From positions 1 to 47,145 of the forward strand of contig JAADCS010000045.1 of assembly GCA_013154295.1 (NCBI GenBank): 47,145 bases of DNA, given 5' to 3'. This DNA is from Thermotogae bacterium. Lineage in GTDB: Bacteria > Hydrothermota > Hydrothermia > LBFQ01. Shown one piece after another: positions 11,020-41,514 of the stretch (the first letter of the stretch is position 1; each line of letters begins with the position of its first letter). Below the pieces are notes generated by a model. It did no database searches. It worked only from the letters and a program-made list of their open reading frames with translations, and was not told where the DNA came from. The translations under genes and the position numbers were made by a program.

Positions 11020-11349
11020 ATGAAGGTTCTTAAAGAGCGTCCTTTGAAGTGGAAGCTGGTTGAAACCAAAACCGGAGCTGTTTTAAACCTCATAGAGATA
11101 GATGATAACCACTTCTTCATAGAGCAGAACTACAAAAAGCCCAGCAAATATGGGGTTGCCTACAGTCGCCTGAAGGAAAAGTTCCCGGAGTTCTACATGT
11201 TCTGGGAGATCAAAAACAACCGGTATACCGGCAAGCTCTTGGCAGGAGCGTTCCTAACCAAAAAGGAGATAGACGACTTTATCACATCGGTACTTCAAAA
11301 CGAAGAGTATAAGAATCACGAGGACGTTAAAGATGAGATCCCGGAGTAG
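11020..11349 (+). CDS. Small hypothetical protein
   Basis: 109 residues, no family recognised. The sequence is rich in Lys, Glu and aromatic residues, with likely beta strands in the first third (VETKTGAVLNLIEIDDNHFF) and a helix near the end (KKEIDDFITSVLQNEEY). No signal peptide or membrane segment, so it should be cytoplasmic. A consensus -10 box and ordinary codon use support real expression. It is the last gene before the non-coding accessory stretch holding repeat copy A. Confidence 0.6.
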   Translation: MKVLKERPLKWKLVETKTGAVLNLIEIDDNHFFIEQNYKKPSKYGVAYSRLKEKFPEFYMFWEIKNNRYTGKLLAGAFLTKKEIDDFITSVLQNEEYKNHEDVKDEIPE

Positions 11350-11764
11350 GGGTAATATCGTTAGGAAGGTAGGTATTTGAACACGTCCCAATCGCCGTTT
11401 CCTTTCACCTGCTACGATTACAAGTTTTCGTTGGAGACCAAGGGCATGAACATCGCTTTGGTTTCACTCTGCGGCCAAACAGCCTCCAAGTGAAACCACA
11501 GAGCATCAAGCAAAACGCCGCAGAATATAGCAAAAGGGCATTATAGACGTTTTTACGCAAGGATCTAAGGCCAAGGAGTGATCGTTAGCTTTCTTTCTTG
11601 CGATGTATATAGGGGACTGTTGACTGTGATTAAAGTGACCCAAAGAGGATGTTTATGATCATGATGATGGAAGCCAAGAGTATAATGGGATTTTTGGAGC
11701 AGGGGAGGGTCATGCTCTCATCACACCCAACCCTCTCGTCCTACCCCAGAATCGTCGTTTAGAT
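11350..11764. other. Non-coding stretch with hairpin repeat copy A
   Basis: No convincing frame on either strand. It holds the 38-nt hairpin (11460-11497) and otherwise unremarkable DNA. A TATAAT-like word near 11678 is not followed by a sensible reading frame. Confidence 0.6.
11460..11497 (-). repeat. 38-nt imperfect hairpin repeat, copy A
   Basis: Outer arms GGTTTCACT and AGTGAAACC pair perfectly; inner GGCC/GCC also pairs. In the orientation where the arm TTGGAGGC comes first it is on the reverse strand. It ends 336 bases upstream of the FG-GAP gene at 11833. Confidence 0.75.
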
Positions 11765-11832
11765 AACACCGGATTGTACTGTGTGCAAACCCTCCTCCCG
11801 GCACACACATTTCACCACTATAATCCGGTGTT
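11765..11832 (+). promoter_or_regulatory. Nested inverted repeat containing the -10 box of the FG-GAP gene
   Basis: AACACCGGATTGTA (11765-11778) pairs with TATAATCCGGTGTT (11819-11832) at 13 of 14 positions. Inside it TGTGTGC (11780-11786) pairs with GCACACA (11801-11807). The right arm contains the TATAAT -10 box (11819-11824) and ends one base before ATG 11833. Possible readings are an operator for a dimeric regulator or a supercoiling-sensitive cruciform. It cannot be an mRNA leader hairpin if transcription starts at about 11831. Confidence 0.6.
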
Positions 11833-13320
11833 ATGATGGGTATTCTTTTGATTTTGGGACAATCGTATGAGGATTTCGGTCCTTCGGCGCCTGATTGGAA
11901 ACAGTTTAGGCATGATTTTAGGCGCACAGGCCGAACGGCTCTCGTCGGTAACTGTGGTTCCATGAGCCGCCTGTACGACCGCGTCCACGGAGGCCTTGAT
12001 TTGAGCCTTATATCGGTGGATGTGAATCACGATGGCGACTACGACATAATAACCGCCGAGATAAACTACGGCGTAAAGGCCACTGACGGCAACAGTGGTG
12101 CTAACCTCTGGTTAAGAGATTTCCCAGATCAATTCAGAACACCCATAGCCTCGGTGGCCGCCTCCCGCAACAACCGCAAGATATACGCTCACTCCTACAG
12201 CTACTTCCGTGTCCTTAACATGAGTGGCAACATCCTATACAGTCAAACCAAAAGCTCTCGGCGAGGGGAATCGCCTCTGGTAGCCGATATAGAACCCGAC
12301 GGATGCCCGGAGGTATTCGTTTATATGAGTGGTTATGCTTACAGCATAAGGGGATGCGCTTCCACCTTCCTGTACAACTGGAGAACATCCTTGCCTTCTC
12401 CTTCACACGCTGCAGCCATGGGCGATATAGATGGCAACGGCGACTGGGAAATTCTCTTCCCGCTCACCAACGGCCGCATATACGTTCTCAATGCTGAAGA
12501 TGGTTCCTTTCACAGCTCCTTCTATGCCTACATTCCCTCCACTCCTGAAACCTACCCTGACTATACGGTGGCCGTCGAAGATTTGGACGGTGACGGCAGG
12601 GACGAAGTAGTCGTGCCTCGTAGAAGTGCCGTGAGAGTATACGAATACGGTTCCTCTTGGACACAGGTTTGGTACCGGTCCCTCACCAATTCCTCCACTG
12701 TTGCCCTGGGAGACAAAAACGGAGATGGTCGCTCTGACGTGTGGGTAGTGAGTGGAAATGAGCTACGAGTATACCGAGGATACGACGGCGCATATTTGGG
12801 TGGAACCTCCAGCTTGGGAGCTCGTGCCTCCTATCCTCCCACTCTCCTGGATCTAAACAACGATGGCCATTTGGACGCTGTCGTAATGTATGGTAACTAT
12901 AGGCTCCGCCTCGTAAACGGCGTCACGATGAACGTTATAACCACCTTGGGGACTACTCCCTACGGAATAACCTCCGAGGTAGTACCGCTCAAGCTTTCAC
13001 CCACATCCTTAGGCTTTAGTGTGGGCGATCATTCATGTCACATAAGTACCTGGGGATACTGTACCTTAGCCGCCGCCGATGATGACCTATCTACCTCTGA
13101 AAACCGGGATGAGATCAAAGAGGAGATACGTCTCTCCGGTAGAACACTTTTCGTATCGGGAAGGGATGGATCGTCAGTGGAGATCTACAACTTGACTGGA
13201 AACAGGGTTTTCCATGGCACCATCAAGGGCAGTTCTCTACGGGTGGATCTTTCGCATCTTCCCAAAGGGGTGTATTTGGTACGTACCCCCATACGTCTTA
13301 CCAAGGTCGTTCTCCGATAG
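11833..13320 (+). CDS. Secreted FG-GAP/VCBS beta-propeller protein with C-terminal sorting domain
   Basis: 495 residues. At least five calcium-binding DxDxDG-type loops mark FG-GAP repeats: DVNHDGDYD, DIDGNGDWE, DLDGDGRDE, DKNGDGRSD and DLNNDGHLD, spaced as propeller blades. The last 65 or so residues form a separate beta domain (SVEIYNLTGNRVF, then LPKGVYLVRT, ending KVVLR) like the C-terminal sorting domains of type IX-type cargo. The N-terminus MMGILLILGQS is a very short signal-like stretch; an in-frame TAA at 11821 prevents extension. Likely a cell-surface or released adhesin or glycan-binding protein. Promoter lies in a large inverted repeat. A terminator hairpin follows. Confidence 0.85.
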   Translation: MMGILLILGQSYEDFGPSAPDWKQFRHDFRRTGRTALVGNCGSMSRLYDRVHGGLDLSLISVDVNHDGDYDIITAEINYGVKATDGNSGANLWLRDFPDQFRTPIASVAASRNNRKIYAHSYSYFRVLNMSGNILYSQTKSSRRGESPLVADIEPDGCPEVFVYMSGYAYSIRGCASTFLYNWRTSLPSPSHAAAMGDIDGNGDWEILFPLTNGRIYVLNAEDGSFHSSFYAYIPSTPETYPDYTVAVEDLDGDGRDEVVVPRRSAVRVYEYGSSWTQVWYRSLTNSSTVALGDKNGDGRSDVWVVSGNELRVYRGYDGAYLGGTSSLGARASYPPTLLDLNNDGHLDAVVMYGNYRLRLVNGVTMNVITTLGTTPYGITSEVVPLKLSPTSLGFSVGDHSCHISTWGYCTLAAADDDLSTSENRDEIKEEIRLSGRTLFVSGRDGSSVEIYNLTGNRVFHGTIKGSSLRVDLSHLPKGVYLVRTPIRLTKVVLR

Positions 13321-14358: not shown

Positions 14359-15552
14359 ATGTTTAAAGTGAGCAATGTGAGACGATTAGAAGAATACCTA
14401 AAACATTTGCTCTTATCCGGTACTGTACCTAAAGATCTTCTCAAGGTGATAGCTATGTTCCACTTTTTCAACATGGACATGGGAAAAACACACTATTACA
14501 TTAGACTTTGGGATCGTTTGGTAAAAGAAAGGGATGAGGATATTGAATGGTTAAAATTTATGCTGAAATTCTTAGCCTTTAAACCTTTAGATCCCCCCCA
14601 AAAACCCATTGAGAACTTCTACTACACCATGTATTACCTTGGCGATTTTGCCAAGGCATACCGAATACTTTATGAAAACGAAGATTACATACGTGCCAGA
14701 TTTTCCCAAGCCTTTTTGCATTCTCTATACCTGCAGGTTTTTAACTTTCTGGGTAGAATGTACGTTCTACCGAAATCTGCCCTCAAAGGTGATCCTTCGG
14801 AAATATACGGCGGTATAAACCGAGCTTTCACCGGTGATCTTCTCGCCCTTAGGGATGTATTTAGGTCCAAAAGGTTTCCCTTTCTGTTGAGTCATCCTTT
14901 TTCGAAGAGGTTGGCGATCATCGGCAGAATGGTCATGGCCATAATGGAGGAAGACTTTCTGACCTACGAAATTCTTCTCAAGAGTTTTCAGAAGGAAGGG
15001 GAGAAGTTGTTATATCTCGCAGGTCGGATACTTGGAAGTATCTTTGATCCCGCGCAGACGGTGAGAGAGGTGGAGTTACCTGACTACGCTCCGTTCTTTA
15101 GAAAGATAAATCGTCTCGTTCGTAAGGGGTTTCTCTGCAACGTATCGCCTAAGGAGGCCGGGATACAGAGTTTCTTGTGGCACGCTTATAAGGTTAAAGA
15201 CAAAAGAAAATACATCTCCTTTGGGGGGAGGTTAAGAGTAGTACAGGGGCTTGAAGAGGTAAAATTACCCAGAAGGAAAGCACTGATAATCCTTGGGATA
15301 GAACGTACCTTAGGAACCGAAGGACTAAGAAGTATGGCATCTCATATATTTCCCCACAGTCCCAAACCGATGAAAACCGTGTACGATTACATGCGTTTCA
15401 TTAGAGAGTTTAGACATTCACCTTCCAATTTAAGATTCACGCTCTATTCGGGCAGTTTTCTGTACGATGAAACTGAACCGTGGGCCATGGAACTTAAAGA
15501 TAAGCTAAAAAGGGCGGGCAGGTTAAAAAAACCTATTATAGGACGACCGTAA
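14359..15552 (+). CDS. Hypothetical mostly helical protein
   Basis: 397 residues, not recognised. It looks all-helical and strongly basic (many Lys and Arg) with aromatic-rich helices such as HYYIRLWDRLVK and FYYTMYYLGDFAKAYRILYE, reminiscent of degenerate TPR-type helix pairs in the first half. No signal peptide or clear membrane segment; no catalytic motif seen. It has its own promoter and its stop lies 9 bases before the galT TTG. Conserved helices plus basic charge could suit nucleic acid or protein binding, but this is a guess. Confidence 0.6.
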   Translation: MFKVSNVRRLEEYLKHLLLSGTVPKDLLKVIAMFHFFNMDMGKTHYYIRLWDRLVKERDEDIEWLKFMLKFLAFKPLDPPQKPIENFYYTMYYLGDFAKAYRILYENEDYIRARFSQAFLHSLYLQVFNFLGRMYVLPKSALKGDPSEIYGGINRAFTGDLLALRDVFRSKRFPFLLSHPFSKRLAIIGRMVMAIMEEDFLTYEILLKSFQKEGEKLLYLAGRILGSIFDPAQTVREVELPDYAPFFRKINRLVRKGFLCNVSPKEAGIQSFLWHAYKVKDKRKYISFGGRLRVVQGLEEVKLPRRKALIILGIERTLGTEGLRSMASHIFPHSPKPMKTVYDYMRFIREFRHSPSNLRFTLYSGSFLYDETEPWAMELKDKLKRAGRLKKPIIGRP

Positions 15553-16495: not shown

Positions 16496-17094
16496 CTTTA
16501 GGGAATATTACAAACATTGTGAAGTTGGGGATTTTGTGTTTTTTGCTGTATAAATGCCCTTTTTGAATGTACGGCTCTCTTTCAGAGGAGTATGAGATTC
16601 TTTAAAGATCCTTCGTTCCCTACAGACTTTAAAAATGCAAGATGTACAAACAATCCGAAGTTAATGAAGATAATTTCACTTGGAGGCTAAATACCCTCAT
16701 AGTGAGACCAATTCAGATGTTGCCGTTCTTTCGTTTCTCCAAAGAATATCGCAAATGGTGAGTGAGATGATTACTACGAAAATTTTTCCCATCTATAAAA
16801 TACAAACGTTATGCTGGTATTTTTACTCTCCCAATCGGCTAACCCTTATGTGGCGGTTGCACCATCACCATAAATCGGGTGGTGGTTGCCATAAGGGGGA
16901 AAAAAGATGTGGAACGTACGTAAGCGCTGTTATGAGACGTTTGTTGAAAACCTTCAATCGTGGCGACAATAAAATCTCCTTGGTGTTTGCTATGGGATTA
17001 AAAAAACTATCTCTATTTAAGATTTCGCCCCGATTATACCCACGATTATAGGGAAATCAAATCCTCTAAGATACTTACTCGCGGCCCAAACCTG
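16496..17094. other. Non-coding stretch after tRNA-Ala with repeat copy B
   Basis: No supported gene; short frames here lack family resemblance and ribosome sites. Contains the 38-nt hairpin at 16672-16709 and a TATAAAAT word at 16796-16803 without a sensible frame after it. Base use is more A+T rich than the flanking genes. Confidence 0.55.
16672..16709 (+). repeat. 38-nt imperfect hairpin repeat, copy B
   Basis: Core arms TTTCACTTGGAGG and CCTCATAGTGA. The similarity to copy C extends over about 70 bases, from CCGAAGT upstream to TTCAGATG downstream. It lies 177 bases past the 3' end of tRNA-Ala and about 390 bases before the decayed propeller gene. Confidence 0.7.
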
Positions 17095-22023: not shown

Positions 22024-22418
22024 TACTTCTTTGATGCGTAGCCCCTTTAAAGGAAGATGAAACTCTCTAAAAGATTTTTAGCCAGTTTTTCGTTTTACTT
22101 TTCACAAGTTCAAGAAACGGCCCGAAGTCAATGAAGGTGGTTTCACTTGGAGGCCATTTAGCCTCACAGTGAAACCAGTTCAGATGCTACCTATCGTGAT
22201 AGTTAGAATAGGTGGGGACTTCGTATCCATCAAACCCCCCCCTGTAGCCATATTTTCTCAGTCACCCATTTAAAGGATATCGTTTCAATGAGATAGTAGC
22301 GTACTCCATACCGTATATCCATTCATCTACGAGCCCTCTCTTTAAACCAGCAAAATAGCACAAACTTAACACAATAATAACGAACGGCCGATCCGTTGAC
22401 CCAACCGAGAGGTGAAAA
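22024..22418. other. Non-coding stretch with hairpin repeat copy C
   Basis: Between the SDR stop and the 3' end of tRNA-Val. Holds the 38-nt hairpin at 22139-22176 and no credible frame; a run of 8 C's lies near 22240. No sign of a surface-protein gene or remnant here, unlike the other three repeat copies. Confidence 0.55.
22139..22176 (+). repeat. 38-nt imperfect hairpin repeat, copy C
   Basis: The best-formed copy: GGTTTCACTTGGAGGC, a short loop, GCCTCACAGTGAAACC. Two mismatches are kept within the stem (between ACT and GAGG). It lies 243 bases beyond the 3' end of tRNA-Val. Confidence 0.8.
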
Positions 22419-36388: not shown

Positions 36389-36977
36389 TTACCTCCGGCA
36401 GTGGTTCATGGCCTTTTTGATCCCTTCGTCGTCGGTTAGGTCGCAGGGGGGGTTTTGCCGTCGTTGTTCTTAGCGGAGACGTCGGCGCCTTTTTCAACTA
36501 GGTACTTACCTGTAGATGCCCTCTCAAGGAAGCCAAATGCAAGGGGGTGTGGCCAAGATCATACTTAGCATTAACATCGGCACCTTTTTCAATTAGGTAC
36601 TTCATCACAGGGAGATGCCCTCTTAAGGCAGCCTCATGTAAGGGGGCGCGGCCCAATCTATCCTTAGCATTAATGTCAGCGCCTTTTTCAACCAAGTACT
36701 TCATCTGTTTAAGATCTCCTCCATAAGCTGCGAAATGTAGCAAAGTTTTCCCATCGTGGAACTTAACATCCACCGATCCCCTCCTTATAAACTCCCCAAC
36801 CAAATACTTCACCACCTGTGGATGACCTTCCCAAGCAGCCACATCCAGGGGGATGCGTCCTTCGTTATCACATACGGTATCTATCTTCGCTCCCCTCTTA
36901 ACCAAGGCCTTTACCTCTTCGTAGTTCCCCTCTTTTGCAGCTTTGCAAAGTGATTGGGAGATAATGAGTAACAGCAT
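36389..36977 (-). pseudogene. Secreted ankyrin-repeat protein gene with two frameshifts
   Basis: From ATG 36977 the frame gives 159 residues with four or more ankyrin repeats (GRIPLDVAAWEGHPQVVKYL, GRAPLHEAALRGHLPVMKYL, GHTPLHLASLRGHLQV) and stops at 36498. The repeat continues in the next frame as YLVEKGADVSAKNNDGKT; a 1- or 4-base loss near 36505 explains this. A second shift at a 7-C run (36446-36452; 5 or 8 C's would restore the frame) leads to CDLTDDEGIKKAMNHCR and a TAA at 36389. A repaired protein would have about 196 residues. N-terminus MLLLIISQS is a very short signal-like stretch. Sequencing error at the C run is possible. Confidence 0.7.
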
Positions 36978-39280: not shown

Positions 39281-39439
39281 GTTCTTACGGTAACCTTTTT
39301 ATATGCTGCGAGAGAAAATAAACCTCTAGTCACCATAGCCCTACGGATCGGCAGGCACCGAAGGTGCGATAACCTTTGGAGCGATTTTATAAGGGAATTC
39401 GTTACGAGATACTCCTGATGAAACGTACAGCACATGGGT

Positions 39440-39477
39440 GGTTCCACTGTGAGGGCATTCGGCCTCCAAGTGAAACC
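39440..39477 (-). repeat. 38-nt imperfect hairpin repeat, copy D
   Basis: GGTTCCACTGTGAGGG, short loop, GGCCTCCAAGTGAAACC, in the same orientation as copy A. It ends 520 bases upstream of the FG-GAP gene at 39997. Confidence 0.75.
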
Positions 39478-39981
39478 ATCAAACATCACATTTTAAAAAA
39501 GTTACCCGATTTGAAGCACGCTTATAGTACAATTTCCTTCCATGAATACAAAAGCTGCCGTTACCTGAAGATGGAACCCTTGTATCCGAGTGTCTATAAT
39601 GCCCTTGACTACGGTGATGTTGCTCTGAATATTGTGCAGCTTTTATATCGTAAAACTGCCAAAAATTTGAAATTTGTATGTTATAGATGCATTGTTTTTC
39701 GAATTTTACCAGAATGTGCGGTTAAGGAATCATCCATCATGTGCAAGAACAGGGATTTGGTGTATAGAGAAATGATAGCGTCTAAGAATAACAGTAGCAC
39801 TAAGAAACAATTTTCCTTCAAAATTTTGAATATTTATTTTTACCACGAAATAAACATGGGCAATCCTATAGCAGGAAGTATGATAGCGATGATTATATGG
39901 TTTTTTATGTAGTATCACTACTTAATATGCCCATATCACCTTTTTGGATGCAACCTGTTGCAGATTCTAAGCATTCAACTA

Positions 39982-39987
39982 TATAAT
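39982..39987 (+). promoter_or_regulatory. -10 box TATAAT for the FG-GAP gene at 39997
   Basis: Consensus TATAAT 9 nt before ATG 39997; argues against the upstream in-frame TTG at 39958. Confidence 0.6.
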
Positions 39988-39996
39988 TTGAGGACT

Positions 39997-41514
39997 ATGA
40001 TGTGGATAATAGCAAGCATACCAACAACGATCGGTCCCGTCCTGCAAAGGCAGGACGTTAGTACGGTGCGTTTAAAAGATCTTCCACCGGATACCACGAT
40101 TCACCTATCCTCTATGAGCTTTTCGCGCACCTTCGTATGTGCCCCGAAAGATAGTTATCTCTGGGTTGTAACCGATAGGTACGATATAGTCCACGATATT
40201 GACGACAACGGTTTAGTTGATATACCCTTCACAGCGGCAGACGAGGAGGACAGCTGGAGTAGCACCAGTTGGCCCGGTTACGCTTATGTAGCTTTTCAAA
40301 CTAGCCCTGGAAACTTTTCTTGCCAGATCGTATCAAACCAACATGACACCCCTTACGGCGTATCCGTGGGAGATTTCAACGGAGATGGACGCGAAGATTT
40401 GGTTTTTTCCTCCGCCCGTGATAACGCCGCCTACACCTTAAGGAACAACGGTGGATGGTCCTTCACGGAGCAAATGATCGGCTCCGGTGGTGGTTTCCCA
40501 AACCACATGGCCGTAAGGAATGTGGATGCTGGTCCAGGTGCAGAAGTTCTGTACACGGATGAAAATGGCTATCTGTACCAGTACAGTTATACCACCTCGT
40601 CAAGGACCAGGGTCAATACCCTATGCGAAGAAGGATTGGCCGTGGAGGACATAAACGGTGATGGGGAGCAGGACGTAGTATGCGGTACAGGAAACGGATA
40701 CTCGGTAGGTAGAGTGATCTATCAGATAAGGACGAGCGGAACCTGGTCCAGTGTGCGCAACGTGACAACCGCCAACCGTTACTACCATGGGATCAAGGCT
40801 GCCGATCTAAACGGTGATAGGAGGGTGGATATAGTTTCGTGTGTAGGAGCTACCGTCTATGTGTGGTACAATAACGGTGGCACATACCCTACCTTTACGG
40901 AGCGTTCCTATCCCACGGGAGCATCGGCCTCTTCAAACGCCTGTGAGGTCACTATAGCGGATCTTGATTGCGACGGTGACGGCGATATAGTATGGTCCTT
41001 CTATGGGTCCAGATCTCCATCTATAGTCATACTCGTTAACAACGGTGCGACACCTTACCCGAGTTTTACTCCCCAAGTTCTCGAAGGTGGGGCCTACAGC
41101 GTTTATGGGGTAGCCGTAGGTTTGGTCAACGATGATCGCAAGGCTGACATCATAGCCGGCCTGAACACCGGTCTATACATCTACTACAACACCACACCGG
41201 TTTTGGATTCACTGTGTGATCCCTTCGGAATAGGAGACAATGAAGGATTGGCCACTAAGGAGGATCCCATCAGGACTATACCGCAGGTAAAATTCTTCAA
41301 GGTGATCGGAAAGGATGTGATCTTGGAGTTGACATCACCTTCGGAGAATATATCCTTTAGCCTCTACTCGTCTGATGGACGCTTAGTTCAGAGAGGAAGG
41401 GTTAAGGGTAGCGTTTTAAAACTCCACATATCAAACTCCGGAGCCTACGTCCTAAGAGTACGCTATGATAAGGGACATCTGGACTTCTTCTCCAAAGCCT
41501 TCGTTATAAAGTAG
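39997..41514 (+). CDS. Secreted FG-GAP/VCBS protein with C-terminal sorting domain
   Basis: 505 residues. FG-GAP calcium loops occur along the chain: DIDDNGLVD, DFNGDGRED, DINGDGEQD, DLNGDRRVD, DLDCDGDGD, spaced like a seven-bladed propeller. Residues from about 430 form a separate beta domain (FFKVIGKDVILELTSP, FSLYSSDGRLVQRGR, GAYVLRVRYD, ending KAFVIK), the sorting-type tail. It is a paralogue in architecture of the protein at 11.8 kb. The N-terminus MMWIIASIPTTIG is a short hydrophobic signal. A terminator hairpin follows the gene. Likely a surface adhesin or glycan-binding protein. Confidence 0.84.
   Translation: MMWIIASIPTTIGPVLQRQDVSTVRLKDLPPDTTIHLSSMSFSRTFVCAPKDSYLWVVTDRYDIVHDIDDNGLVDIPFTAADEEDSWSSTSWPGYAYVAFQTSPGNFSCQIVSNQHDTPYGVSVGDFNGDGREDLVFSSARDNAAYTLRNNGGWSFTEQMIGSGGGFPNHMAVRNVDAGPGAEVLYTDENGYLYQYSYTTSSRTRVNTLCEEGLAVEDINGDGEQDVVCGTGNGYSVGRVIYQIRTSGTWSSVRNVTTANRYYHGIKAADLNGDRRVDIVSCVGATVYVWYNNGGTYPTFTERSYPTGASASSNACEVTIADLDCDGDGDIVWSFYGSRSPSIVILVNNGATPYPSFTPQVLEGGAYSVYGVAVGLVNDDRKADIIAGLNTGLYIYYNTTPVLDSLCDPFGIGDNEGLATKEDPIRTIPQVKFFKVIGKDVILELTSPSENISFSLYSSDGRLVQRGRVKGSVLKLHISNSGAYVLRVRYDKGHLDFFSKAFVIK

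Follow-up and report, generated by a model that had tools for sequence, protein, structure and literature searches.

The stretch of DNA analysed here, referred to as the window, comprises 47,145 nucleotides and corresponds to contig C118, part of a genome of 1.97 Mb. Most of the best named matches to the fabH protein encoded in the window were MAGs labelled candidate division WOR-3. In the window, a gap of 483 bp separates a DUF7132 gene (11020-11349) from a gene encoding a protein of 495 aa that combines FG-GAP repeats with a Por_Secre_tail sorting domain, and a dyad was found at the downstream edge of this gap, reaching into the start codon of the FG-GAP gene (Table 1). A 14-base arm with 13 of its 14 bases paired had been claimed for this inverted repeat in the initial annotation. 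The repeat proved to be real and slightly better than that, with the perfect arms ATAACACCGGATT and AATCCGGTGTTAT paired in 13 of 13 positions, and in 17 of 19 when lengthened to 19 nt (11763-11781 and 11816-11834). The span previously given, 11765-11832, leaves out two outer pairs of the dyad. The inner 7-bp arm was present as described. The hexamer TATAAT had been placed within the right arm; its AAT lies in the perfect arm and its TAT only in the extended one. A second gene for an FG-GAP protein (518 aa) was observed in the window at 39958-41514, and an FG-GAP query gave 15 matches in the genome.

Table 1. Features at the dyad and in the adjoining intergenic region (window coordinates).
Feature	Position	Strand	Remarks
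Dispersed 40-bp palindrome family, one copy	11459-11498		unrelated to the dyad and not part of it; same intergenic region
Eroded, internally deleted element, about 157 bp	11614-11770	+	probable extent from end-to-end alignment; left limit approximate
End-B-side segment, same element family	11657-11710	+	81% over 54 bp to C149, E 2.3e-8
Terminus A of the decayed IS/MITE	11733-11770	-	89% over 38 bp to C146
Left arm of the dyad	11763-11775	+	outermost 8 bases (11763-11770) belong to the terminus of the decayed element; last 5 outside it
Inner arm, left (TGTGTGC)	11780-11786	+	
Inner arm, right (GCACACA)	11801-11807	+	
-10 box TATAAT of the putative leaderless promoter	11819-11824	+	8 nt before the ATG at 11833
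Right arm of the dyad	11822-11834	+	shares bases with the -10 box, includes the presumed transcription start and ends with the AT of the ATG
FG-GAP protein gene, 495 aa	11833-13320	+	FG-GAP repeats and Por_Secre_tail sorting domain

Among the perfect inverted repeats of the window the dyad ranks first, and its statistical support beyond chance is modest. Perfect arms of at least 13 within 90 nt were obtained in 32 out of 800 dinucleotide shuffles of the window, with a mean of 0.041 per shuffled window, and a mismatch-tolerant score gave 2 out of 40 in a separate shuffle run. The combination of perfect arms and a nested 7-bp inner arm, a criterion chosen after the feature had been seen, was found in none of the 800 shuffles, and this leaves room for selection. 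The local fold of the dyad had z-scores of -5.5 as DNA and -6.8 as RNA against its own shuffles. Exceptional folding was nevertheless ruled out as a hallmark of the dyad, since its RNA energy of -27.9 kcal/mol per 72 nt is ordinary among the 72-nt stretches across the window: 34 places at or below -26.4 kcal/mol were counted in the real window versus 26 to 36 in six shuffled windows.

The right arm has the layout of a leaderless promoter, with its -10 box within the 6-9 nt that precede the start codon; a search for a sigma-70-type promoter with a -35 box gave no match at the FG-GAP gene start. The starts of FG-GAP homologues in this genome and in related ones were taken from 12 of 19 tblastn rows, the remaining seven being left out because the match began beyond residue 20. 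A -10-like hexamer was located 6-9 nt before the start codon in 10 of these 12 (for example TATAATTCGTGCT-ATG in G004), while L050 and L052 had no reliable start. The inverted repeat score at the 12 homologue starts was 8 at most, compared with 13 in the window. An exact TATAAT was found 6-8 nt before 5 of the 37 starts examined in the window, the variants TAAAAT or TAGAAT preceded others, and leaderless-type starts appear, from this spacing, to be common in it. Additionally, two other, unrelated genes of the congener G003 begin with TATAAT-ACCGGTGTT-ATGAT and TATACT-TCCGGTGTT-ATGAT, letters near-identical to those of the right arm, while the left arm is missing there. In these two starts, in G003:C14 and G003:C207, CCGGTGTT-ATGAT recurs after a -10 box. 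Because homologues share this layout without the dyad, and because of the G003 starts, the right arm is, judged by its sequence, an ordinary leaderless promoter of the genus with a presumed transcription start. None of the other leaderless promoters examined carried a comparable dyad. A literature search found nothing on WOR-3 elements or on leaderless WOR-3 genes.

The left arm has a different source. When the 101 bp around the site were compared with their own genome, weak matches to the left edge were obtained besides the site itself, and no convincing second copy. These left-edge matches belong to a dispersed repeat that stops at ...GTTTAGACAACACC, with different DNA beyond it in most copies; the C1 and C45 copies have partly common DNA past the repeat end. 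The repeat ends in ...AACACC (AACATC in two) in C146, C45, C1, C41, C138, C149, C142, and C53. Reading inward from the edge, end A is GGTGTTGTCTAAACGGCGATTTTGAG..., and end B is GGTGTTGTCTAATTTACGC... or GGTGTTGTCTAAATAACTGG...; both ends were seen in the C149 and C71 copies, which have 12-bp termini GGTGTTGTCTAA with up to two changes. In total, 14 element ends including that of the window were examined in the genome, a number that is not an exhaustive count. Terminus A of the window reads GGTGTTATCTAAACGACGATTCTGGGG inward from 11770, and its sister ends mostly read GGTGTTGTCTAAACG. End A is clear in the window copy, and the end-B side aligns as well, with its outermost bases eroded. It follows from the matches to end A and to the end-B side, together with the alignment, that the outer eight bases of the left arm are the element terminus and that the next five (GGATT) lie outside it. 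The alignments show the left arm to be the end of a putative eroded MITE/IS remnant, belonging to a family with GGTGTTGTCTAA inverted repeats at both ends and several copies dispersed in the genome.

As in other MITEs and decayed IS remnants, 12-bp terminal inverted repeats, several copies, internal deletions and transposase fragments were found in this family. The window copy differs from them in being eroded, in contributing only its end to the dyad and in having no recognised target-site duplication. No such duplication was recognised by eye at the flanks of the C149 and C71 copies either, and in some families no duplication is made that would outlast decay. A frame-broken zinc-ribbon piece without a Pfam match above the cut-off lies beside end A; this transposase piece was not found in any of the 59 relatives searched and matched one of the 60 genomes, its own. 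Moreover, a DDE_3 fragment (PF13358, E 4.7e-8) was detected in a C12 piece that matches C41 and C146. IS630 is only a candidate for the IS family: the DDE_3 fragment connects to the GGTGTTGTCTAA family by way of C41 and C146, but in C41 it reads opposite to the zinc-ribbon piece, and TA, the IS630 target, flanks only one of the 14 ends (C71A). No intact transposase copy of the GGTGTTGTCTAA family was found, only fragments.

At the other 13 element ends no dyad longer than 7 bp was detected, the best one being a 7-bp palindrome. As only the end in the window, out of 14, takes part in a longer dyad, the dyad is not a feature of the element. The mobile-element footprint proposed in the initial annotation holds for the left arm, which is a decayed IS/MITE terminus. 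It does not hold for the dyad as a whole, because the right arm appears to be a native, ordinary leaderless promoter and the dyad is thus not made of two element ends.

The conservation of both arms in relatives, which had been put forward as a check and whose lack had been named as one of two refuting observations, was analyzed and not found. The whole dyad was absent from the five congeneric genomes (best match in a relative, E 0.18), and the right arm alone recurs. The exact matches of 14-15 nt in the congeners that were examined consist of letters of the right arm or of the element edge alone: the two in G003 are the leaderless starts with right-arm letters, and those in G004:C29 and G005:C44 fall within FG-GAP coding sequence. 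A match of G004:C54 to 15 element-end bases, in apparently coding sequence, was taken as chance (E 1.66). Six WOR-3-type fabH loci, out of 80 fetched, were also compared in search of an empty site; fabH was present and no FG-GAP match was found in these six, one of which extends only 1.1 kb past fabH. Since the loci compared showed no FG-GAP gene, no allele without the element or without the dyad was obtained.

The explanation that we consider fairly probable is that the dyad is an incidental quasi-palindrome, formed by the end of a dead MITE/IS that faces an ordinary leaderless promoter, completed by a template switch or by further chance, and with no dedicated function. The dead element end, 56 bp upstream of the promoter and facing it, supplies the left arm, and the start region of the promoter happens to hold the element-end letters GGTGTT. 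This short chance match would then have been lengthened and tidied into 13 perfect pairs, either through template switching at replication or again by chance. As transcription and translation would both start at the downstream edge of the dyad, the leaderless mRNA would be made without the hairpin. Two observations bear on the second step. The seventh base of the terminus, G in all 13 sister ends, is A in the window, where the A pairs with the right arm, and the pairing continues for 11 nt past the element end, with 9 of 11 paired. Both suggest a later event, of the kind that a template switch would leave. The first match to the terminus letters GGTGTT may well be chance, given that genes of the genus repeatedly start with CCGGTGTT-ATG, and the G003 starts favor the incidental quasi-palindrome.

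The dyad resembles the repeats left by template switching in that an imperfect match appears to have become a perfect stem, the sequence having diverged from the sister ends in the direction of the other arm. It differs from them in that, as no pre-event allele was found, we infer the template-switch step rather than read it from an ancestral sequence. PMC7202029 describes template switching during replication as a mechanism for E. coli, and PMC8794818 reports that it creates hairpins elsewhere. The possibility that the gene start itself came from a second element end was also considered and rejected: the match GATTTTGGG between the element interior and the gene start was not significant, the score of the window end being reached by 727 of 2000 shuffles. 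For the C146, C45, and C138 ends, the scores of this type of match were reached by 92, 423, and 162 of 2000 shuffles, respectively.

Against the incidental origin stands the position of the dyad, exactly over the -10 box and the start codon, as would be expected of an operator. A regulator acting as a dimer or by looping could bind both half-sites, 59 bp apart from centre to centre, and block the -10 box of the FG-GAP gene, which is covered by the right half-site together with the start; the 13 perfect pairs with their nested inner arm, reached by none of the 800 shuffles, would also agree with this. The operator suggested in the initial annotation is unlikely, although it comes foremost among the alternatives: elsewhere in the own genome the 101-bp region has only weak partial matches and no convincing second copy, no whole dyad exists in the five congeners, and what recurs at congener promoters is the right half alone rather than paired half-sites. 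Moreover, the homologues have no dyad, the left half is mostly element terminus, and none of the seven neighbouring proteins scanned is a DNA-binding regulator (one of them, encoded at 14359-15552, had no Pfam match). The invertible element, also proposed initially, is very improbable. A promoter segment or small mobile element bounded by both arms would, after inversion of its interior, bring TACAAT, a weak -10, in front of the unchanged start. By contrast, no second copy of the unit was found in the own genome, no recombinase or transposase was detected among the 37 window proteins scanned, and the right arm is apparently a native promoter. To our knowledge, the known invertible segments are all longer than the 46-bp interior seen here. 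An integron attC site was rejected by eye, as the dyad did not fit the core sites of such elements, and no phage relative was found.

A role as RNA had been dismissed on the grounds that the transcript is leaderless. The leaderless transcript is well supported by the promoter layout; the dismissal does not follow from it, since an RNA read through from upstream would hold the whole hairpin. Such an RNA might fold into the hairpin and cover the start codon, which would restrict efficient translation to the leaderless mRNA. In agreement with this, the RNA of 11720-11890 keeps the hairpin in both its minimum-energy and its centroid folds, and both in-frame AUGs (11833 and 11836) are paired in these folds, with five more pairs, partly G-U, outside the dyad. 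The leaderless 5' end alone is not unusually structured, and no terminator-like site was found between 11340 and 11900. However, of the first AUG only the A and the U are paired by the dyad itself, the z-score of the longer fold is only -2.67, equally strong hairpins are common in the window, no conservation of the dyad was found in the five congeners, and no evidence of transcription from upstream was obtained. This read-through guard is also unlikely, and we rank it after the operator. The transposase start codons of IS10 and IS50 are protected against read-through RNA, and the guard would resemble that protection. An extension of this idea, in which the dead transposon end would have been recruited as a gate, with read-through RNA folding on the promoter and start codon to shut translation so that only the leaderless mRNA would be translated, is considered less probable again than the guard. 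Pure coincidence would require neither template switching nor selection, the element end and the promoter matching by chance. With about 0.04 such arms expected per 47-kb window, about two would occur per 2-Mb genome; the dyad had been picked as the best of its window, and a match of GGTGTT to the recurrent genus start CCGGTGTT-ATG needs no cause. It would, however, require extra coincidences, namely the nested inner arm, the continued pairing outside the element and the shift of base 7 toward the right arm, and we place this alternative after the recruited gate, as distinctly improbable.

If the incidental origin is correct, an operator-like palindrome over a promoter can arise from the decay of a mobile element beside a recurrent start sequence, which calls for caution when operators are predicted in metagenome-assembled genomes. 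If, instead, the guard were true, a domesticated element end would make the gene depend on its leaderless mRNA. By-products of the analysis were the small IS/MITE family and a species-specific repeat, the palindrome family of Table 1, which is the more striking one.

This palindrome, of about 40 bp and with the structure TGGTTTCACT..GAGGC......GCCTC..AGTGAAACCA, occurs in the window at 11459-11498, 16671-16710, 22138-22177, and 39439-39478. Its half-site gave 138 matches in the own genome and none for the reversed control, and between 0 and 2 matches in each of 40 relatives, 11 of which had any. This distribution suggests a species-specific, amplified family of REP-like or MITE-like type. A CRISPR-like repeat was discarded, as the copies are dispersed and single and no array was present at the listed places. 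In C149, one copy of the palindrome adjoins an end of the GGTGTTGTCTAA element.

A third repeat, of about 90 bases and ending at or near GCGCAACTCCTG, was observed at the 3' end of a repeated reading frame that is putatively transposase-like by eye. It was found in L249, L250, L253, L254, and L255 (C20, C38, C89, C114, and C144, respectively), with different DNA beyond each copy. Since four of the five copies begin at a contig end, it is probably another IS end at which the assembly broke. Its similarity to the loop of the dyad was too weak to be used. Additionally, an ankyrin-repeat protein gene was observed on the minus strand of the window (36498-36977), and the DNA at 36469-36977 contains 39-bp repeats spaced 95 and 99 bp.
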